Under the pieces are notes generated by a model that ran no database searches, was not told the DNA's origin, and saw only the letters and a program-made list of their open reading frames with translations. The position numbers and the translations under genes were made by a program. Positions 27,457 through 35,127 of a DNA stretch of 64,000 nt are shown piece by piece. Position 1 is the first letter of the stretch. Each line of letters opens with the position of its first letter. The stretch is from Hymenobacter sp. 15J16-1T3B (lineage in GTDB: Bacteria; Bacteroidota; Bacteroidia; Cytophagales; Hymenobacteraceae), in assembly GCF_020711235.1 (NCBI RefSeq), contig NZ_JAJFAV010000003.1, positions 62,001-126,000 on the forward strand, given 5' to 3'.

Positions 27457-27926
27457 TCAGGCGCTGAATAGCCCTTCGGGGGTTTGGCGGATAAGGCTGA
27501 GGGTGGCCAGCGTATCGAGCAGGGGCTGCACTTTCTCGGGCTTGAGGCGCTTGAAGCGGGCGGCTACCTGGGCGGCGCTGAGGGGCTGGGCGGCCTGCTG
27601 GAGGGCGTCGCGCAGGGCTTGCATCTGCTGGGCCAGCTCGGCGGGGAAAGGCGGGGGTTGGGTGACGGGCTGGTCAGCGGCCAACTTGGCCTCAATAGCC
27701 TGCCGGGTGGGCGTGGTCAGCGTAATGACCTGCTGCTCGGGGCCTGGTAGGCGGGGCGCAGGTAGCGCACGAGGCCGGTGGCTTCCTCGCGGGCGCGCTC
27801 GTGGTTGAGGCGCACGAGGCGCTGGAGCAGCTCGGCATCGGGCAGGTCGTGGGTGGCTGCGGGGAAATCAGGGTAATCGAAATAATCTTTATCGATATGG
27901 ATAGATTTCATAGTTATGGTAATCAA
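27457..27926 (-). pseudogene. C-terminal remnant of an MmeI-like (type IIL) restriction-methylation gene, frameshifted
   Basis: Two adjacent minus-strand frames belong together. The first reads LPDAELLQRLVRLNHERAR and LVRYLRPAYQAP, a sequence typical of the C-terminus of MmeI-like restriction-methyltransferases. It then breaks. One base more in the C4 run at about 27738-27741 would restore EQQVITLTTPTRQAIEAKLA, which runs straight into the second frame (AADQPVTQ to TPEGLFSA). The second frame has a winged-helix-like ending (LSAAQVAARFKRLKPEKVQPL). The upstream part of the first frame (MKSIHIDKDYFDYPDF) is AT-rich and may come from the insertion junction. The homopolymer break could be a sequencing error, but the missing gene centre shows the locus is broken anyway. 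Confidence 0.7.
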
Positions 27927-28512
27927 GGTATAACTGAGAAATAGAATGCTTTACAATTTTTAAATCAGCTTGGAATAATTGACGCGCTCCAAAATCAAGT
28001 TCAGCGTGATGATTAGGGCATAAAACAATCATGTTAGCAGTGATATCAGGACCGCCGTGAGGGTTTCCTAAAGGTTTAATATGGTGCCCTTCCGCGTAGC
28101 GTTCCTTTGTATTCAAGACGATACTATGCTCGCAAATTTGACACCGGTATTGGTATAAACGCTTTAGTTCGTGAGCAAGGGTGCTGTCTCTAATGACTCG
28201 TAACGTCACCTGAATGGCATACTTCGATTCAGGCTCCGCTACATCAGAAGCAGGTGTATCAAATTGCTGATAGTTTCTTAATGCCCATATGCCTTTACCC
28301 AAGCCTTCTACCGAATAAAAAAGGTCTGGCTGTCCTGGACCATGATTCGCAGAATGAGACGAATGCGTCTCAATAGTGCGACGGACTGTGGCTTTCCATT
28401 GAGGAGAGAGGGGTTCAGGTCTGATACGCTCAATCTCTTCATACAAATCAGTGTAAGAAGCTAAGCCGCCTAGATTATCAAAAGCCTTTACAATGTATTC
28501 AAGCCAAGTCAT
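27889..28512 (-). CDS. HNH endonuclease with N-terminal winged-helix-like domain
   Basis: A 207-residue nuclease. Residues 1-80 resemble the helix-turn-helix modules found at the front of restriction nucleases (LGGLASYTDLYEEIERIRPE, GKGIWALRNYQQ). The C-terminal half is an HNH/McrA domain: CQIC, then EGHHIKPLGNPHGGPD and LCPNHHAELDFG, so the His-His catalytic pair and four zinc-type Cys/His positions are intact. The gene is clearly AT-richer than the surrounding DNA, a sign of transfer. It occupies the place where the middle of an MmeI-like gene would be, and its 3' end overlaps the start of the C-terminal remnant. A role as a restriction enzyme or mobile-element nuclease is inferred. Confidence 0.88.
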   Translation of the reverse strand: MTWLEYIVKAFDNLGGLASYTDLYEEIERIRPEPLSPQWKATVRRTIETHSSHSANHGPGQPDLFYSVEGLGKGIWALRNYQQFDTPASDVAEPESKYAIQVTLRVIRDSTLAHELKRLYQYRCQICEHSIVLNTKERYAEGHHIKPLGNPHGGPDITANMIVLCPNHHAELDFGARQLFQADLKIVKHSISQLYLDYHNYEIYPYR

Positions 28513-28552
28513 AGCTGTAGTGTCGGTTTTGGGAATGAGGGAGGATCAAATT

Positions 28553-28957
28553 TTAAGCGGCTAAACTAAATAAACCCTGCTGGCGGGCGGCGTGCATCAT
28601 CTGCTCCCACTTCACGGAGCCGCGCACGGCGTGGCCTTTGCGGCGCTTTTCGGCGGGCAGGCCCAGCTCGGCCCGCTCCGACTTCTGCTGCTGGTCGGGG
28701 GTGTCGGTGCCCTGCTTGGTTTCGAAGATAAAGCAACCGCGCTTGTAGAGGTCGATGCGGCCGGTGCTCTTCTTGCTGCCGTCGCGGAACTCCACGGCGC
28801 GCTCGAGCACGTATTGGTCCTGCTGCGGATTGTCGGTGGTGGGGTCGGGGCGGAGCACGCCCAGCAGGTCGCAGAGGTCTTGCAGGAACAGGCCGTAGTT
28901 GGCGCGCTCGGCCCCGCCGGCCGGGCGCCAGCGGGCTTCAAACTCGGGGTAAGTCAC
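28553..28957 (-). pseudogene. N-terminal remnant of an MmeI-like (type IIL) restriction enzyme, nuclease motif intact
   Basis: A 134-residue frame starting with GTG at 28957. It matches the N-terminal nuclease domain of MmeI-like enzymes: GGAERANYGLFLQDLCDLLG, then GRIDLYKRGCFIFETKQG. The PD-ExK motif has the MmeI spacing D69-x9-E79-x-K81, so the catalytic site is complete. The frame stops with GLFSLAA just after KWEQMMHAARQQ, where a full enzyme would continue into methylase and target-recognition domains. An intact protein of this family is about 900 residues. The remnant could still be translated and could cut DNA unguided, but this is more likely a decayed gene. Confidence 0.75.
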
Positions 28958-29430
28958 GGGTAATTGAGGCTAGGCAATGGGGGGCGGAAGATAGAAGGAT
29001 TTGGCCTGATTAAGCGCCATTTCGCCCTGGCTTCGGTCGTTTGGTGGTGCGCTGCCGCGCGCCTCACCCCCCGGCCCCCTCTCCGAAAAGGAGAGGGGGA
29101 GCCGGACGATTGTTGGGAGGCTCACGTCCCCGGCTTCGCTTGATGCGCGGCTTGAAAAGGATGGGGGCGGGAAAGTTTAGGGGCAGGGGCGGGTTACTTC
29201 CCGCGCCCCGCCGGTATGTAAAGCACCAAGGGCGCCGCTGGTGCCTTGGGCTTTACCCGCGGGCCGGTACTCTGAGTGCCGGCCGCCCCACAGCTGCCGC
29301 CGCAGGTTTTCGTCGCGAAGAAAACCCAGCGGCCGGCGCACCGCCCCCACGCAAGGTCGCGAGTTGCGGCGGGGCGGATCGGCGGGGCGCTACGGCCCGG
29401 GTGCATCCATCCCACCAAGACTGTACTGTT
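28958..29430. other. Leader region of 473 bp with hairpins, upstream of the vWA gene
   Basis: Contains a hairpin at 29071-29105 (GGCCCCCTCTCC pairing with GGAGAGGGGG, GAAA loop), a stem GTAAAGC/GCTTTAC with an inner CCAAGG/CCTTGG at 29218-29256, and a further stem GCCGGCCGC/GCGGCCGGC at 29278-29337. No gene is recognised. The first resembles interspersed hairpins common in GC-rich genomes; the last two may be structured mRNA leader. Confidence 0.5.
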
Positions 29431-31065
29431 ATGACTCTGAACCGCTTGCGGCCCCTGCGGGGGCTGCTGCTGGCGGCTGCGCTATTGTCTGCCTGCAGCC
29501 AGCAATACTCCACCGAAAAACAAGAGGTGCCCGCGGCGTACGGGCTGAGCCGCGAGGCTGCGGCCGATGCCAACGCTGAAGCACCCGCCTTACCGGGTAC
29601 TGCCGATACGGCCCCGGCTCGCCGCGAGAATTACGCCGTGGTGCACGAAAACGCCTTCCTCGACGCCCGGCACAACCCGCTGAGCACCTTCGCCATCGAC
29701 GTGGACCGGGCCAGCTACGCCAACGTGCGCCGCTTCCTCACCCAGAACCGGCAGCTGCCCCCGCCCGACGCGGTGCGGCTAGAGGAGCTGGTGAATTACT
29801 TCCCGTACCAGTACCCGCAGCCCCGCACCGGCCCGGCCTCGCTCAACGCCGAGGTGGCCGCCTGCCCCTGGAACCCCGCCCACCAGCTGGTTCTGGTGGG
29901 GGTGCAGGGCAAGGAAGTGGCGGCGGAACACCTGCCGCCGGCCAACCTGGTGTTTCTGCTCGACGTGTCGGGCTCGATGAACGAGCCGCAGAAGCTGCCC
30001 CTGCTGAAAGAGTCGTTGCGGCTGCTGGTGCAGGAGCGGCTGCGGCCCCAGGATTACGTGAGCATCGTGGTGTACGCCGGCGCCGCGGGCGTGGTGCTGC
30101 CGCCCACTTCCGGTGCCGCGCCCGAAGCCATTCTGCGTGCCCTCGACGGGCTGGAGGCCGGTGGCTCCACGGCCGGCGGCGAGGGGCTGCGGCTGGCCTA
30201 CCAGCTTGCGCAGGAGCACCGCCGGCCCGGCGGCAACAACCGCATCATCCTCGCTACCGACGGCGACTTCAACGTGGGCGAGCAAAGCGACGCCGACATG
30301 GAGCGGCTGATTACCCAGGAGCGCGGATCGGGCGTGTTTTTGTCGGTGCTGGGCTTTGGCGAAGGCAACCTGCAGGACAGCAAAATGGAGCTGCTGGCCG
30401 ATAAGGGCAACGGCAACTACGCCTACATCTACCAGCTGGGCGAGGCCCGGCGGGTGCTGGTGCAGCAGTTCGGCGGCACCTTGTTCACCCTGGCCAAGGA
30501 CGTGAAAGTGCAGGTGGAGTTCAACCCCACGCTGGTGCGCGAGTACCGCCTGCTGGGCTACGAAAACCGCCTGCTGGCCGCCGAGGACTTCAACGATGAC
30601 CGCAAAGACGCCGGCGAGCTGGGCGCGGGCCAGCAGGTTACGGCCCTCTACGAAGTGGTGCCCGTGGGCGCACCCGCCACCGCCGGCCGCCCCGCCGTTG
30701 ACCCGCTGAAGTACCAGACCCCGGTCAGCCCCTCCGCGGCCGGCGGCTGCCAGGAGCTGCTCACCGTGAAGCTGCGCTACCAAGAGCCGCAGGGCAGCCC
30801 GAGCAAGCTGCTGACCCTGCCTGTGCGCGGCACCCGCTTCGACGAACCCATTGCCCAGGCTTCAGACAACCTGCGCTGGGCGGCCGCGGTGGCGCAGTTC
30901 GGGCTGCTGCTGCGCGGTTCGCAGCACCGCGGCGAAGCCAGCTGGGCCAGCACCGCCGAGCTGGCCCGCAGCGCGAACGGGCCGGACACCGACGGGGCCC
31001 AGGCCGAGTTTCGGCAGCTGGTGCAGCAGGCCGCCGCGCTGGGCGGTGAAACGGCCACACGCTGA
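29431..31065 (+). CDS. von Willebrand factor A domain lipoprotein, YfbK-like
   Basis: A 544-residue lipoprotein. The start at 29431 gives a lipobox LSAC (Cys about 22). An N-terminal vWF-like domain (NPLSTFAIDVDRASYANVRR) is followed by a vWA domain with the MIDAS motif DVSGSMNEP, a metal-site Thr in the GGSTAGGEGL region and ATDGDFNVG, then a C-terminal DUF3520-like domain (LVREYRLLGYENR, YEVVPVG). Domain order and length match the YfbK family of unknown function. It should sit in the periplasm or outer membrane facing the periplasm. The long leader carries several hairpins. Confidence 0.9.
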   Translation: MTLNRLRPLRGLLLAAALLSACSQQYSTEKQEVPAAYGLSREAAADANAEAPALPGTADTAPARRENYAVVHENAFLDARHNPLSTFAIDVDRASYANVRRFLTQNRQLPPPDAVRLEELVNYFPYQYPQPRTGPASLNAEVAACPWNPAHQLVLVGVQGKEVAAEHLPPANLVFLLDVSGSMNEPQKLPLLKESLRLLVQERLRPQDYVSIVVYAGAAGVVLPPTSGAAPEAILRALDGLEAGGSTAGGEGLRLAYQLAQEHRRPGGNNRIILATDGDFNVGEQSDADMERLITQERGSGVFLSVLGFGEGNLQDSKMELLADKGNGNYAYIYQLGEARRVLVQQFGGTLFTLAKDVKVQVEFNPTLVREYRLLGYENRLLAAEDFNDDRKDAGELGAGQQVTALYEVVPVGAPATAGRPAVDPLKYQTPVSPSAAGGCQELLTVKLRYQEPQGSPSKLLTLPVRGTRFDEPIAQASDNLRWAAAVAQFGLLLRGSQHRGEASWASTAELARSANGPDTDGAQAEFRQLVQQAAALGGETATR

Positions 31066-31150
31066 GACCGGTGTGTGCGTGGATGGTGCCGTTAGAAAGC
31101 TCTGGCCCGCGCGGCAGTAACACCCGCGTGCAACTTTGCCCAAAGGCGGC

Positions 31151-31245
31151 GGCCACCCCGCCGGTCCTCTCGAACGGCCCAACCAGGCCGTCATGTCGAG
31201 CTTGTCGAGACATCTCGCGTGCTGACGCCAGATAGTATCTTACCC
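31151..31245 (+). repeat. Left 95-bp inverted repeat of the GIY-YIG cassette
   Basis: Begins GGCCACCCCGCCGG and ends ATCTTACCC; exact reverse complement of 31539-31633. The final bases include the stop codon of the GIY-YIG gene. Confidence 0.9.
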
Positions 31246-31536
31246 TTTCCAAGTACGCGGGTCGATTGGTTCCCAGCTTGGATTCAACGTGCCAATCAGC
31301 CATTCCTTCTTGGTCCGGCGCCAATTCTTGAGCTGCTTCTCCCGGGCAATAGCTTGCGCAGCATCCGGGCTACTTTCAAAGTACACCAACAAGTTGCATT
31401 GGTAGCGGCCGGTAAACTTGCCAGCATCACCCAGCCCTTGGCCGTGCTCGTATAGACGCCGCTCTAAATCATTGGTCACGCCGATGTAAAGCACCGTACG
31501 GGCCGGATTGCTGAGTATATAGACGACATAGCTCAT
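31240..31536 (-). CDS. GIY-YIG nuclease family protein (UPF0213/YhbQ-like)
   Basis: A 98-residue single-domain nuclease. The signature is VVYILSNPARTVLYIGVTND, with both halves (YVYIL and YIGVT) in place; the catalytic Arg is in LERRLYEHG and the Glu in AIAREKQLKNW. Length equals the small UPF0213/YhbQ class, which cleaves branched or single-stranded DNA. The start at 31536 lies just inside the right inverted repeat and the stop reaches into the left one. It therefore appears to travel with the repeats. Whether it acts on its own repeats is open. Confidence 0.92.
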   Translation of the reverse strand: MSYVVYILSNPARTVLYIGVTNDLERRLYEHGQGLGDAGKFTGRYQCNLLVYFESSPDAAQAIAREKQLKNWRRTKKEWLIGTLNPSWEPIDPRTWKG

Positions 31537-31538
31537 GC

Positions 31539-31633
31539 GGGTAAGATACTATCTGGCGTCAGCACGCGAGATGTCTCGACAAGCTCGACATGACGGCCTG
31601 GTTGGGCCGTTCGAGAGGACCGGCGGGGTGGCC
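31539..31633 (-). repeat. Right 95-bp inverted repeat of the GIY-YIG cassette
   Basis: Exact reverse complement of 31151-31245; begins GGGTAAGATACTATC and ends GGCGGGGTGGCC. Confidence 0.9.
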
Positions 31634-31643
31634 AATCGACGTA

Positions 31644-31753
31644 GCGGCGGGTCGGGTTTGTGCCGTGTTCGAGCAATGACGCTTGCGGAGTATTCCCGCC
31701 GCATACGGGCTAGGACGCCCGCGGGGTATTTCTGCCGCGTTCGGGCTAGGGCG
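31644..31753 (+). repeat. Three degenerate tandem units of about 36 bp
   Basis: Units at 31644-31681, 31682-31717 and 31718-31753 share the pattern GGNGTATTYCNGCCGC followed by a TTCGGGCTAGGNCG-like end. They abut without spacers, so this is not a CRISPR array. A fourth, poorer unit may follow. They lie directly beside the right cassette arm. Confidence 0.55.
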
Positions 31754-31888
31754 CTACCCGGCTGTTGCCCTCCTCGCTAGTAGGACGACATGATTGACAC
31801 GACGTTGTTTTCTCGGGTGAGGAAGGGCGCGCACGGCATAGCCGGGGCAGGGGCACTCAGCCGTTGGCAGTGAGCCGATGAGAATAAA

Positions 31889-31922
31889 AAAGCCGGGCCA
31901 CTGCATGCAGCGGCCCGGCTTT
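31889..31922 (-). terminator. Terminator after the anti-sigma gene
   Basis: AAAGCCGGGCC (31889-31899) pairs with GGCCCGGCTTT (31912-31922); on the minus strand a T-rich run (from AATAAAAA) follows. Confidence 0.85.
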
Positions 31923-31941
31923 GGGTATGTAAAGGTGGGGC

Positions 31942-32811
31942 TTAGTTCATCTGGCCCATCACCGTCAGCGCGGCCAGCGTGGGGGTGGGGTGGCCGCCGG
32001 CGTCTTCCAGGGTCACGGCAAAGGCCTGGGCGCTGGGAATGTCCTTCATGCGCTGCAGACTGTCGCCGGTGGCGGTGGTTTGCGCCAGCATGCCGGCATC
32101 CAGGGGTTTGCCGCGGTCCATGGCCCAGAGCTGGTACTGCTTGCCGGCGGGCGCGGGCGGCAGGCTCTTCACGTCCACGTACACGCGGCGGCTGACGGGG
32201 TTGTACATCACCCGGGCGCGGGCGCCGGGCGCCTGGGGCGTGCCGGTCATCACCACCATGCGGAACTGCTCGTCGCGCAGCACCCCGATTTCCTGGGTGC
32301 GGGCGGCCAGGCTTTTCTCCACGGCTTGGGTGGCGGCGGCGTAGCGGGCCTGCTCGGCCTGGGCCAGCACCAGCTGGTTTTCGGATTGCTGCCAGCGGCT
32401 ATAGAACAGCCAGTTGGCGCCCAGGCTCAGCAGCAGGGCCACCGAGGCGGCAATGGCCAGCCAGCGGAAGCCGTTGCCGGCGGGTTCGGGGGCGGGCAGG
32501 GTGCGCACCACGGCTTCGGGGCCCGGAGCTTCGTAGCGCGGGGCGGGTTCGGGAGCCGCCGCGGCGGCCGGTGCTTGCGGGCGAATGGCTTGCTGGAAGT
32601 TGCCGAGCACCCGTTCGCGCATATCGGCGGGCGGCGTCACGGCGTGGGCTTCGGCGTAAAGGCCCAGGGCGCGCTGCACGGTGGTCAGCTCCGCCCGGAT
32701 GGCCGGGTGTTCCGCGGCCAGCCGCTCCACCTCGGCCGCCTCGGCCGGGGAAAGCTGCTGCAGCGCGTACAGCTCAAGTTGGCCCGATTCGATGTATTCC
32801 TCGATGTTCAC
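31942..32811 (-). CDS. Anti-sigma factor, RskA-like
   Basis: A 289-residue single-pass membrane protein. Residues 1-100 form the cytoplasmic anti-sigma domain (MNIEEYIESGQLELYALQQL, SPAEAAEVERLAAEHPAIR); a Pro/Ala linker leads to a transmembrane helix at about 117-137 (WLAIAASVALLLSLGANWLF). A coiled coil (about 140-175) and an RskA-type C-terminal domain (RVYVDVKSLPPAPAGKQYQLWA) lie in the periplasm. It follows the ECF sigma gene by 8 bp and should hold that sigma factor until an envelope signal triggers release by proteolysis. The zinc HxxxCxxC motif is absent. Confidence 0.92.
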   Translation of the reverse strand: MNIEEYIESGQLELYALQQLSPAEAAEVERLAAEHPAIRAELTTVQRALGLYAEAHAVTPPADMRERVLGNFQQAIRPQAPAAAAAPEPAPRYEAPGPEAVVRTLPAPEPAGNGFRWLAIAASVALLLSLGANWLFYSRWQQSENQLVLAQAEQARYAAATQAVEKSLAARTQEIGVLRDEQFRMVVMTGTPQAPGARARVMYNPVSRRVYVDVKSLPPAPAGKQYQLWAMDRGKPLDAGMLAQTTATGDSLQRMKDIPSAQAFAVTLEDAGGHPTPTLAALTVMGQMN

Positions 32812-34971: not shown

Positions 34972-35127
34972 TTAGGGTCTGTGGACAGTAAGCAAAAAGA
35001 ACGTCATGCTGAGCCCCGCGAAGCAACTATACCGCTTCGTTGTCCGGTAGAGCTGCTTCGCGGGGCTCAGCATGACGTTCTAAAAAGCATTGGAGTGCTC
35101 TTTTGAGTTACTGTCCACACACCCTAG
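34972..35127. mobile_element. 156-bp MITE-like element
   Basis: Terminal 20-bp imperfect inverted repeats, TTAGGGTCTGTGGACAGTAA (34972-34991) and its near reverse complement at 35108-35127 (2 mismatches), enclose a perfect 28-bp inner inverted repeat (34998-35025 and 35054-35081) with core GTCATGCTGAGC. No coding capacity. The outer ends resemble those of a DNA transposon, so an IS elsewhere in the genome may mobilise it. Confidence 0.7.

Follow-up and report, generated by a model that had tools for sequence, protein, structure and literature searches.

A 98-residue GIY-YIG nuclease gene of Hymenobacter sp. 15J16-1T3B was found between two inverted, CGTC-tagged palindromes, and the locus is probably the gene-bearing member of a mobile system similar to the REPIN/RAYT systems, with the GIY-YIG nuclease as its enzyme. 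The locus was examined in a window of 64,000 nucleotides (the whole stretch of DNA analysed), which corresponds to positions 62001-126000 of contig C33 in the 6.33-Mb host genome (G000). The inverted arms were located at 31151-31245 (plus strand) and 31539-31633 (minus strand) of the window; each was 95 nt long, the two were 100% complementary, and 293 nt lay between them. Such an exact match is far beyond chance, because the next best inverted pair in a 3-kb scan covered only 25 nt at 80%. The gene was positioned on the minus strand at 31240-31536 with an ATG start. Its stop codon fell within the left arm, and its start codon ended 2 bases short of the right arm. An earlier, sequence-only reading had described exact 95-bp inverted arms around a 98-residue GIY-YIG gene and a stop codon inside one arm, and both descriptions were borne out (Pfam GIY-YIG, PF01541, E 5.9e-16). 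The locus was well inside a 486-kb contig (C33:93151 of 485,917), and therefore it is not a contig-end artefact.

The arms exceeded the unit that was common to relatives. The blastn homology of the window unit with the copy in genome G006 and with locus L014 covered exactly 31189-31595, from CGTC to CGTC, whereas it covered 31180-31613 in genome G003 and 31180-31596 in G007. The neighbouring genes of these homologous copies differed from those of the window, i.e., the copies were non-syntenic. The common stretch of 407 bp (31189-31595, minus strand) consisted of a CGTC-tagged palindrome, the GIY-YIG gene and a second CGTC-tagged palindrome. The left tag and its imperfect palindrome (CGTC with ATGTC...GACAT) were at 31189-31213 on the plus strand (palindrome 31190-31213), and the right tag and imperfect palindrome were at 31571-31595 on the minus strand (palindrome 31571-31594), with both tags facing outward. 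The tail of the unit was CTC, and its stem was mismatched. The palindromic core that the arms had been said to carry was present, but the palindrome was imperfect, and the folding of one window unit as single-stranded DNA was weak (-3.2 kcal/mol, z -0.2). An inverted pair without a gene, of a sister type with an ATGCT stem and outward tags, was present at 35002-35077, directly downstream of an aldehyde-dehydrogenase-like ORF; as a whole it folded at -39.6 kcal/mol (z -11.4), which is a very stable predicted hairpin. The Rfam search gave zero matches across 30900-32000. The perfect inverted match extended 38 bp past the CGTC tags (31151-31188 and 31596-31633), more than in most relatives. These outer 38 bp of each arm were mostly local to the window copy, and parts of them looked by eye like the flanks of some other copies. 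The extension is an inverted, not a direct, duplication of the flank, perhaps produced by hairpin-primed repair or gene conversion.

The protein gave one other Pfam match, to T5orf172, which was weak. Neither a HUH/tyrosine transposase domain nor a NUMOD-type DNA-recognition domain was found by Pfam in its 98 residues, NCBIfam gave no match, and no relative was found in phages at E 1e-6. The nearest named relatives among the matches listed were from Hymenobacter. By alignment, residues Y6, Y17, R27, H31, E66 and N85 were invariant across 13 diverse proteins and were kept in 97-99% of 194 proteins, a set that includes duplicates of one organism retrieved twice; we take these residues to be the positional equivalents of the GIY-YIG active site, with the numbering set against I-TevI. 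The C-terminal ending NPxW occurred in 149 of the 194. The dN/dS value between the window gene and its nearest relative was 0.034, and the median over the computable pairs of ten genes was 0.074, with dS saturated in many pairs, which yield no ratio. These values point to strong purifying selection on the nuclease gene. The sole solved relatives by sequence were two UPF0213 proteins (PDB 1zg2 and 1ywl). The cousin gene yhbQ of E. coli, whose product is annotated as a DNA damage response nuclease, was 50 bp from one neighbour and overlapped the other, and no outward-tagged palindrome was found within 260 bp of it.

The relationship between GIY-YIG genes and tagged palindromes across bacteria was evaluated at loci chosen by protein similarity alone. 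The best 80 of at least 571 were taken, of which 75 were used in a 260-bp flank test and 73 in an inverted-repeat test (the 5 and 7 dropped had too little flank). Outward palindromes within 260 bp were found on both sides of 44 of the 75 GIY-YIG loci, compared with 8 of 473 control ORFs taken from these loci, and on at least one side of 66 of the 75, compared with 81 of the 473. Of 146 control ORFs with a spacer of 80 bp or more on each side, 7 were both-sided; when Hymenobacter and Solirubrum were left aside, 35 of 58 GIY-YIG loci were both-sided, with a p value of 2.9e-17 against these 146 controls. The motif-free test, which took the best inverted repeat around the gene, gave 27/73 versus 13/556 (p 1.7e-18). 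In a set of 105 loci, formed from the best 80 of at least 571 together with own-genome and genus searches, an outward-tagged palindrome occurred within 450 bp on at least one side in 93 and on both sides in 71; 34 lacked one on at least one side, including 12 without any tagged palindrome nearby. The same loci gave 229 outward versus 104 inward matches, and 64 were expected from the rest of the loci for both orientations combined. In a set of 128 loci, the nearest left and right stems were identical in 67 of the 87 both-sided loci, where 10.6 would be expected, and in 19 of 35 versus 5.9 without Hymenobacter and Solirubrum. The 105-locus and 128-locus sets include duplicates of one organism retrieved twice. 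Both-sided loci numbered 29 of 44 in Bacteroidota and only 4 of 12 in Bacillota. Single both-sided loci were found in Actinomycetota, Planctomycetota, Verrucomicrobiota, Thermotogota, Campylobacterota, Fibrobacterota, Pseudomonadota and candidate phyla, and single loci of Elusimicrobiota, Spirochaetota, Thermodesulfobacteriota and some candidate phyla were not both-sided. The association of the gene with tagged palindromes is near certain. The sequence-only reading would have been refuted by a gene at conserved positions without arms in all relatives; the relatives were found to bear palindromes of their own at non-syntenic sites.

The arm core was not confined to this locus either, which would have been a second refuting condition of that reading. 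The query 31151-31260 gave at least 59 matches in the host genome including the two arms, i.e., at least 57 further ones; this figure is a lower bound, with 40 of 166 candidates scored. The CGTC tag, at query base 39 (31189), was the exact start of 17 of the 59 matches. Among the matches listed, those outside the window formed 38 gene-less loci, every one of which was inspected. Inverted pairs with tags outward ('+-') accounted for 24 of these loci, single copies for 13 and a tandem arrangement ('++') for 1, and tags facing inward ('-+') for 0. The 24 pairs had the same orientation as the palindromes around the nuclease gene. The gene-less pairs spanned 105-171 bp and resembled the window unit minus its gene. 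The arm core occurs in the host genome both with and without the gene. The ends were examined in 28 gene-less pairs, of which the left end was CGTCAT in 24, CGTCCT in 3 and TGTCAT in 1. A G three bases before the tag was present at 27 of 28 left and 27 of 28 right ends, and an A preceded that G at 18 left and 21 right ends; the resulting terminal motif, (A)GNNCGTC, reads AGGCCGTC in the window (31185-31192, plus strand). The target duplications that were to be looked for were absent from all 28 pairs, whose ends gave 0 direct 4-mers against 0.5 in shuffles. To our knowledge, REPIN/RAYT systems are likewise without target duplication. A reading as a MITE or insertion sequence was down-weighted, given no target duplication in the 28 pairs and no transposase domain in the sole gene.

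Other features were observed near the locus. The stretch 29041-29143, with ORFs translating to LTPRPPLRKGE and PHPPAPSPKRRGG, looks like another dispersed repeat of the CCCTCTCC...GGAGAGGGG type, and a stretch akin to it was present at the D2 site of genome G002 (L274). An ORF with an HNH-like motif (27889-28957, minus strand) adjoined a 134-aa ORF that resembles the start of a truncated restriction-methylation enzyme.

Related genomes were compared at individual sites. The copies of G003 and G006 were in one common site, and L012 and L013 were in another. The spacer orthologous to the window site measured approximately 85 bp in G003, approximately 185 bp in G002 and 876 bp in the window, and the unit was absent from G003 and G002. 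Empty sites had been recommended for search by the sequence-only reading; orthologous spacers lacking the unit were obtained, but an exact empty junction for the window copy, sought in G003 and G002, was not recovered, as these spacers do not align. The G002 spacer (L155, about 1310-1440) held a different inverted repeat, GCGCGGGCT...AGCCCGCGC. For pair D1, a pair was present in G003 and a single unit-like remnant in G002, and it was absent in G006. At the D2 site, G003 had no palindrome, G002 had one of the ATGCT type, and G000 and G006 each had an ATTCC/ATGTC pair; alternatively, the clean empty site of G003 could be a deletion. In the spacer orthologous to 35002-35077, G003 had one CGTC-tagged palindrome, of a different type, and G002 had none.

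The correspondence between repeat type and gene lineage was explored in the host family, where at least 94 of 120 genomes held a relative at E 1e-12. From the matches listed, 106 family genes, mainly of genera g1 and g5, were taken with their flanks, and each was labelled by the five bases that begin its flanking stem. The tree had 105 rows and 97 columns, with 51 of 102 inner branches open; 78 of the rows carried one of eight main labels, and the other 27 had no label or an ambiguous or rare one. The labels required 11 changes on the gene tree, whereas 1000 shuffles required 46.9 on average and never fewer than 39. When labels were shuffled among paralogs within genomes (52 paralogs, 22 genomes), 8 changes were observed, whereas the shuffles averaged 27.5 and never fell below 15; 0 of 2000 were as low. 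Hence, by this comparison, each of the several nucleases of a genome bears its own repeat type. Gene L182 of G101 was within the ATGCT clade yet was flanked by ATGTC, and the G101 genome has 171 ATGTC repeats.

Repeat numbers were compared in 51 genomes of two genera. The ATGTC repeats numbered 54-171 in the 6 genomes with an ATGTC-flanked gene, and their median was 0 (maximum 61, in G111) in the 45 genomes without one (p 2e-5). For ATTGC, the median was 23 in 13 genomes with the gene versus 3.5 in 38 without (p 3e-4). When the test was repeated with G117 moved to the group with the gene, p was 6e-5; G032, which has an ATTGC-flanked, stop-bearing copy, stayed in the group without. The number of ATGCT repeats was independent of an ATGCT-flanked gene (median 70 in 22 genomes with it, 94 in 29 without; p 0.41). 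For three patterns, the reversed-pattern control had no match in any of the 120 genomes. No family gene was detected by profile search at E 0.01 in G111, G020, G069, G073, G075, G079 and G081, two of which are single-contig genomes; these seven held 6-517 ATGCT repeats. G111, with 517 ATGCT and 61 ATGTC repeats and no family nuclease even by profile, is a candidate orphan repeat population. No matching gene was found for the 131 ATTGC repeats of G028 or the 46 of G046. Repeats without a detectable family gene may reflect gene loss or another mobiliser.

Loci of Proteobacteria and plasmids were also analysed, with 15 of the 32 plasmid-collection records with a relative retrieved and the palindrome rule applied at a 400-bp limit. 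According to the rule, 10 of the 15 loci had outward palindromes on both sides, one of which (S. meliloti) had a spurious right match. By eye, S. meliloti, Sphingobium and Novosphingobium were also both-sided, with one-base variation or a non-AT stem, giving 12 of 15; L259, L263 and L266 had no clear pairs. The proteobacterial units were of the CGTCATCC..GGATCCA type, and CCA- or CCAT-like tails occurred in the flanks of the Rhizobium, Shinella and Azospirillum genes. The unit of N. gonorrhoeae was CGTCATTCCCGCGCAGGCGGGAATC, which we take to be dRS3. The exact pattern had low counts: 2 copies in the A. caviae record (4.94 Mb), both beside the gene; 5 on the Rhizobium CIAT894 plasmid, all within 2.4 kb around the gene; 1 in S. 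meliloti; and 8 in Shinella WSC3. Neorhizobium was searched by the second pattern only, and the Neisseria, Azospirillum and Shinella PSBB067 records were outside this count. Because the exact copies in A. caviae and CIAT894 sit around the gene, these palindromes look like part of the unit rather than background. Two contexts were recorded in addition. On the Azospirillum lipoferum plasmid AZO_p3 (L267, 1058-1674), a GIY-YIG unit with CGTC palindromes was in the sufB-sufC spacer of the suf operon, and on the Planktothrix plasmid p1 (L256, 879-1793), a GIY-YIG gene with TGTC-tagged palindromes was between an MmeI-type restriction gene and the DISARM gene drmA.

The mechanism that we propose is as follows. 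The unit would consist of two CGTC-tagged palindromes, inverted and with tags outward; a few copies hold the GIY-YIG gene between them, and most hold none. The nuclease would recognise its own palindrome type, present as a pair, as a cruciform or as a hairpin where single strands are exposed, and would cut at the CGTC tags or close to them. Host repair might then insert the freed or copied unit, whether or not it contains the gene, into new intergenic sites, with no duplication of the target. The GIY-YIG protein would in this way serve CGTC-tagged REPs as the RAYT is thought to serve GTAG-tagged REPs. It is likely that the nuclease acts on the palindrome. The hypothesis that its action drives the spread of the repeats is the best single explanation. 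The small mobile unit parallel to REP/RAYT, which the sequence-only reading had put forward, gains from the outward gene-less pairs, the repeat type that tracks the gene type, the non-syntenic copies and the likeness to a REP superfamily. Several results speak against it: ATGCT repeat number is independent of a matching gene, seven genomes hold ATGCT repeats with no family gene found, G111, G028 and G046 hold ATGTC or ATTGC repeats with no matching gene found, some loci lack a tagged palindrome on one side or both, and few Bacillota loci are both-sided.

An unlikely alternative is that the nuclease resolves or trims repeat cruciforms or repairs DNA in the manner of YhbQ, that the palindromes regulate its expression or stability, and that the repeats spread by other means. 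Strong purifying selection, the UPF0213 proteins as nearest solved relatives, the annotation of YhbQ and the persistence of repeats in genomes where the gene was not found are consistent with this role. By itself, however, it would not explain why every paralog within a genome is enclosed by a palindrome pair specific to its lineage; it leaves unexplained that the only two exact-pattern copies of A. caviae are both at the gene, and it does not account for the non-syntenic gene positions. It is quite improbable that an unrelated enzyme or replication slippage moves the pairs, with the nuclease gene travelling as cargo or having become trapped in spacers rich in repeats. The seven genomes with repeats and no detectable gene would fit such transport, as would the gene-independent number of ATGCT repeats, but only 7 of 146 control ORFs with spacers at these loci had palindromes on both sides, the repeat type tracks the gene lineage, one enzyme family recurs over many phyla, and the A. 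caviae record has no further exact-pattern copies.

GIY-YIG is a domain of homing enzymes, and the unit is compact and without target duplication. A homing endonuclease that cuts a site lacking the unit, so that repair copies the unit in, could be considered on these grounds. It is very improbable, however, as no extra DNA-recognition domain was found in the 98 residues, the many sites have no evident common target beyond (A)GNN, and homing requires a homologous site, yet the copies are in unrelated contexts with no conserved target common to alleles. An assembly duplication, which the sequence-only reading had named as a refuting outcome, or a coincidental pair, to either of which a 95-bp identity exceeding that of most relatives might point, was rejected as having a negligible chance, because the same architecture recurs in independent genomes, control rates were low and the reversed pattern gave 0 in 120 genomes.

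The preferred reading, in which a GIY-YIG nuclease serves a mobile system as its enzyme, bears on a published repeat group. The CGTC-tagged REP superfamily (Di Nocera and colleagues, 2013) includes dRS3 of Neisseria and RPE-4/RPE-6 of Rickettsia, and according to that paper these REPs are apparently without a dedicated transposase (PMC3733652). They are described there with an 8-9 bp stem that starts with AT, a 4-5 nt loop, a CCA-like unpaired tail and mostly outward (HH) pairs. REPINs, which are inverted pairs of REPs, have been proposed to move by the action of RAYTs, which are single copy and apparently unable to move themselves (PMC3116915). A link between GIY-YIG and REPs was absent among the matches listed from the open-access PubMed Central literature, and a subscription paper, a preprint or other wording could report one; the string 'palindrom' was not found in the available part of the 2006 survey of the GIY-YIG superfamily (PMC1564403). 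The GIY-YIG protein is a specific, widely distributed, single-domain candidate enzyme for CGTC-tagged REPs, and it makes the question of their missing transposase testable using a single protein and a single oligonucleotide. If this is true, unrelated enzymes were recruited on at least two occasions to palindromic REP systems that have a cognate enzyme, and a likely function would be gained for many genes whose sole name is 'GIY-YIG nuclease family protein'. The presence of several enzyme-palindrome pairs in one genome also offers natural material for studying how a nuclease this small recognises DNA. The chances seem evenly balanced for a broader claim, namely a separate class of transposable element in many bacterial phyla, with CGTC-tagged palindromes at its ends and a stand-alone GIY-YIG nuclease as its sole protein, which would embrace most CGTC-tagged REPs (dRS3, RPE and the counterparts in Bacteroidota, Rhizobiales and Patescibacteria) and represent a second, independent invention of REPs with a cognate enzyme.

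Compared with known systems, the window protein and the UPF0213/YhbQ-like GIY-YIG proteins (PF01541; 1zg2, 1ywl) have in common a single catalytic domain, a length of about 100 aa and the same active-site residues, whereas E. coli yhbQ has no outward-tagged palindrome within 260 bp and the studied group often ends in NPxW. Gene-less copies beside a gene-bearing copy and inverted ends are also features of MITEs and insertion sequences, but here no target duplication and no transposase domain were found, and the ends are themselves palindromic and tagged. Relative to the CGTC REP superfamily (PMC3733652), the likeness includes the CGTC tag, first stem pairs of AT and mostly outward pairs (24/38, with 0 inward), and the proteobacterial copies have a CCA-like tail. 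As for the published stem and loop, the window unit folds weakly alone, and the proteobacterial units resemble the published type by eye. The difference is that GIY-YIG genes here bear the repeats as their ends, and that the stem in the window is mismatched and its tail is CTC rather than CCA-like. The window repeats belong to, or closely resemble, this superfamily, with the CTC tail and mismatched stem deviating from the published consensus. With REPIN/RAYT systems (PMC3116915, PMC3733652), the present system shares short tagged palindromes, dispersed inverted pairs, an enzyme gene flanked by its own repeat type, several enzyme-repeat types together in one genome and a repeat type specific to the enzyme lineage (11 versus 46.9 changes; 8 versus 27.5 within genomes). 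The tag here, however, is CGTC/GTC rather than GTAG, the enzyme is a GIY-YIG nuclease rather than a HUH tyrosine transposase, and close copies of the nuclease gene occupy different sites, unlike the single-copy RAYT of the former paper. The system would work like a REPIN/RAYT pair but is not one, because its tag and its enzyme both fail the definition of that family.
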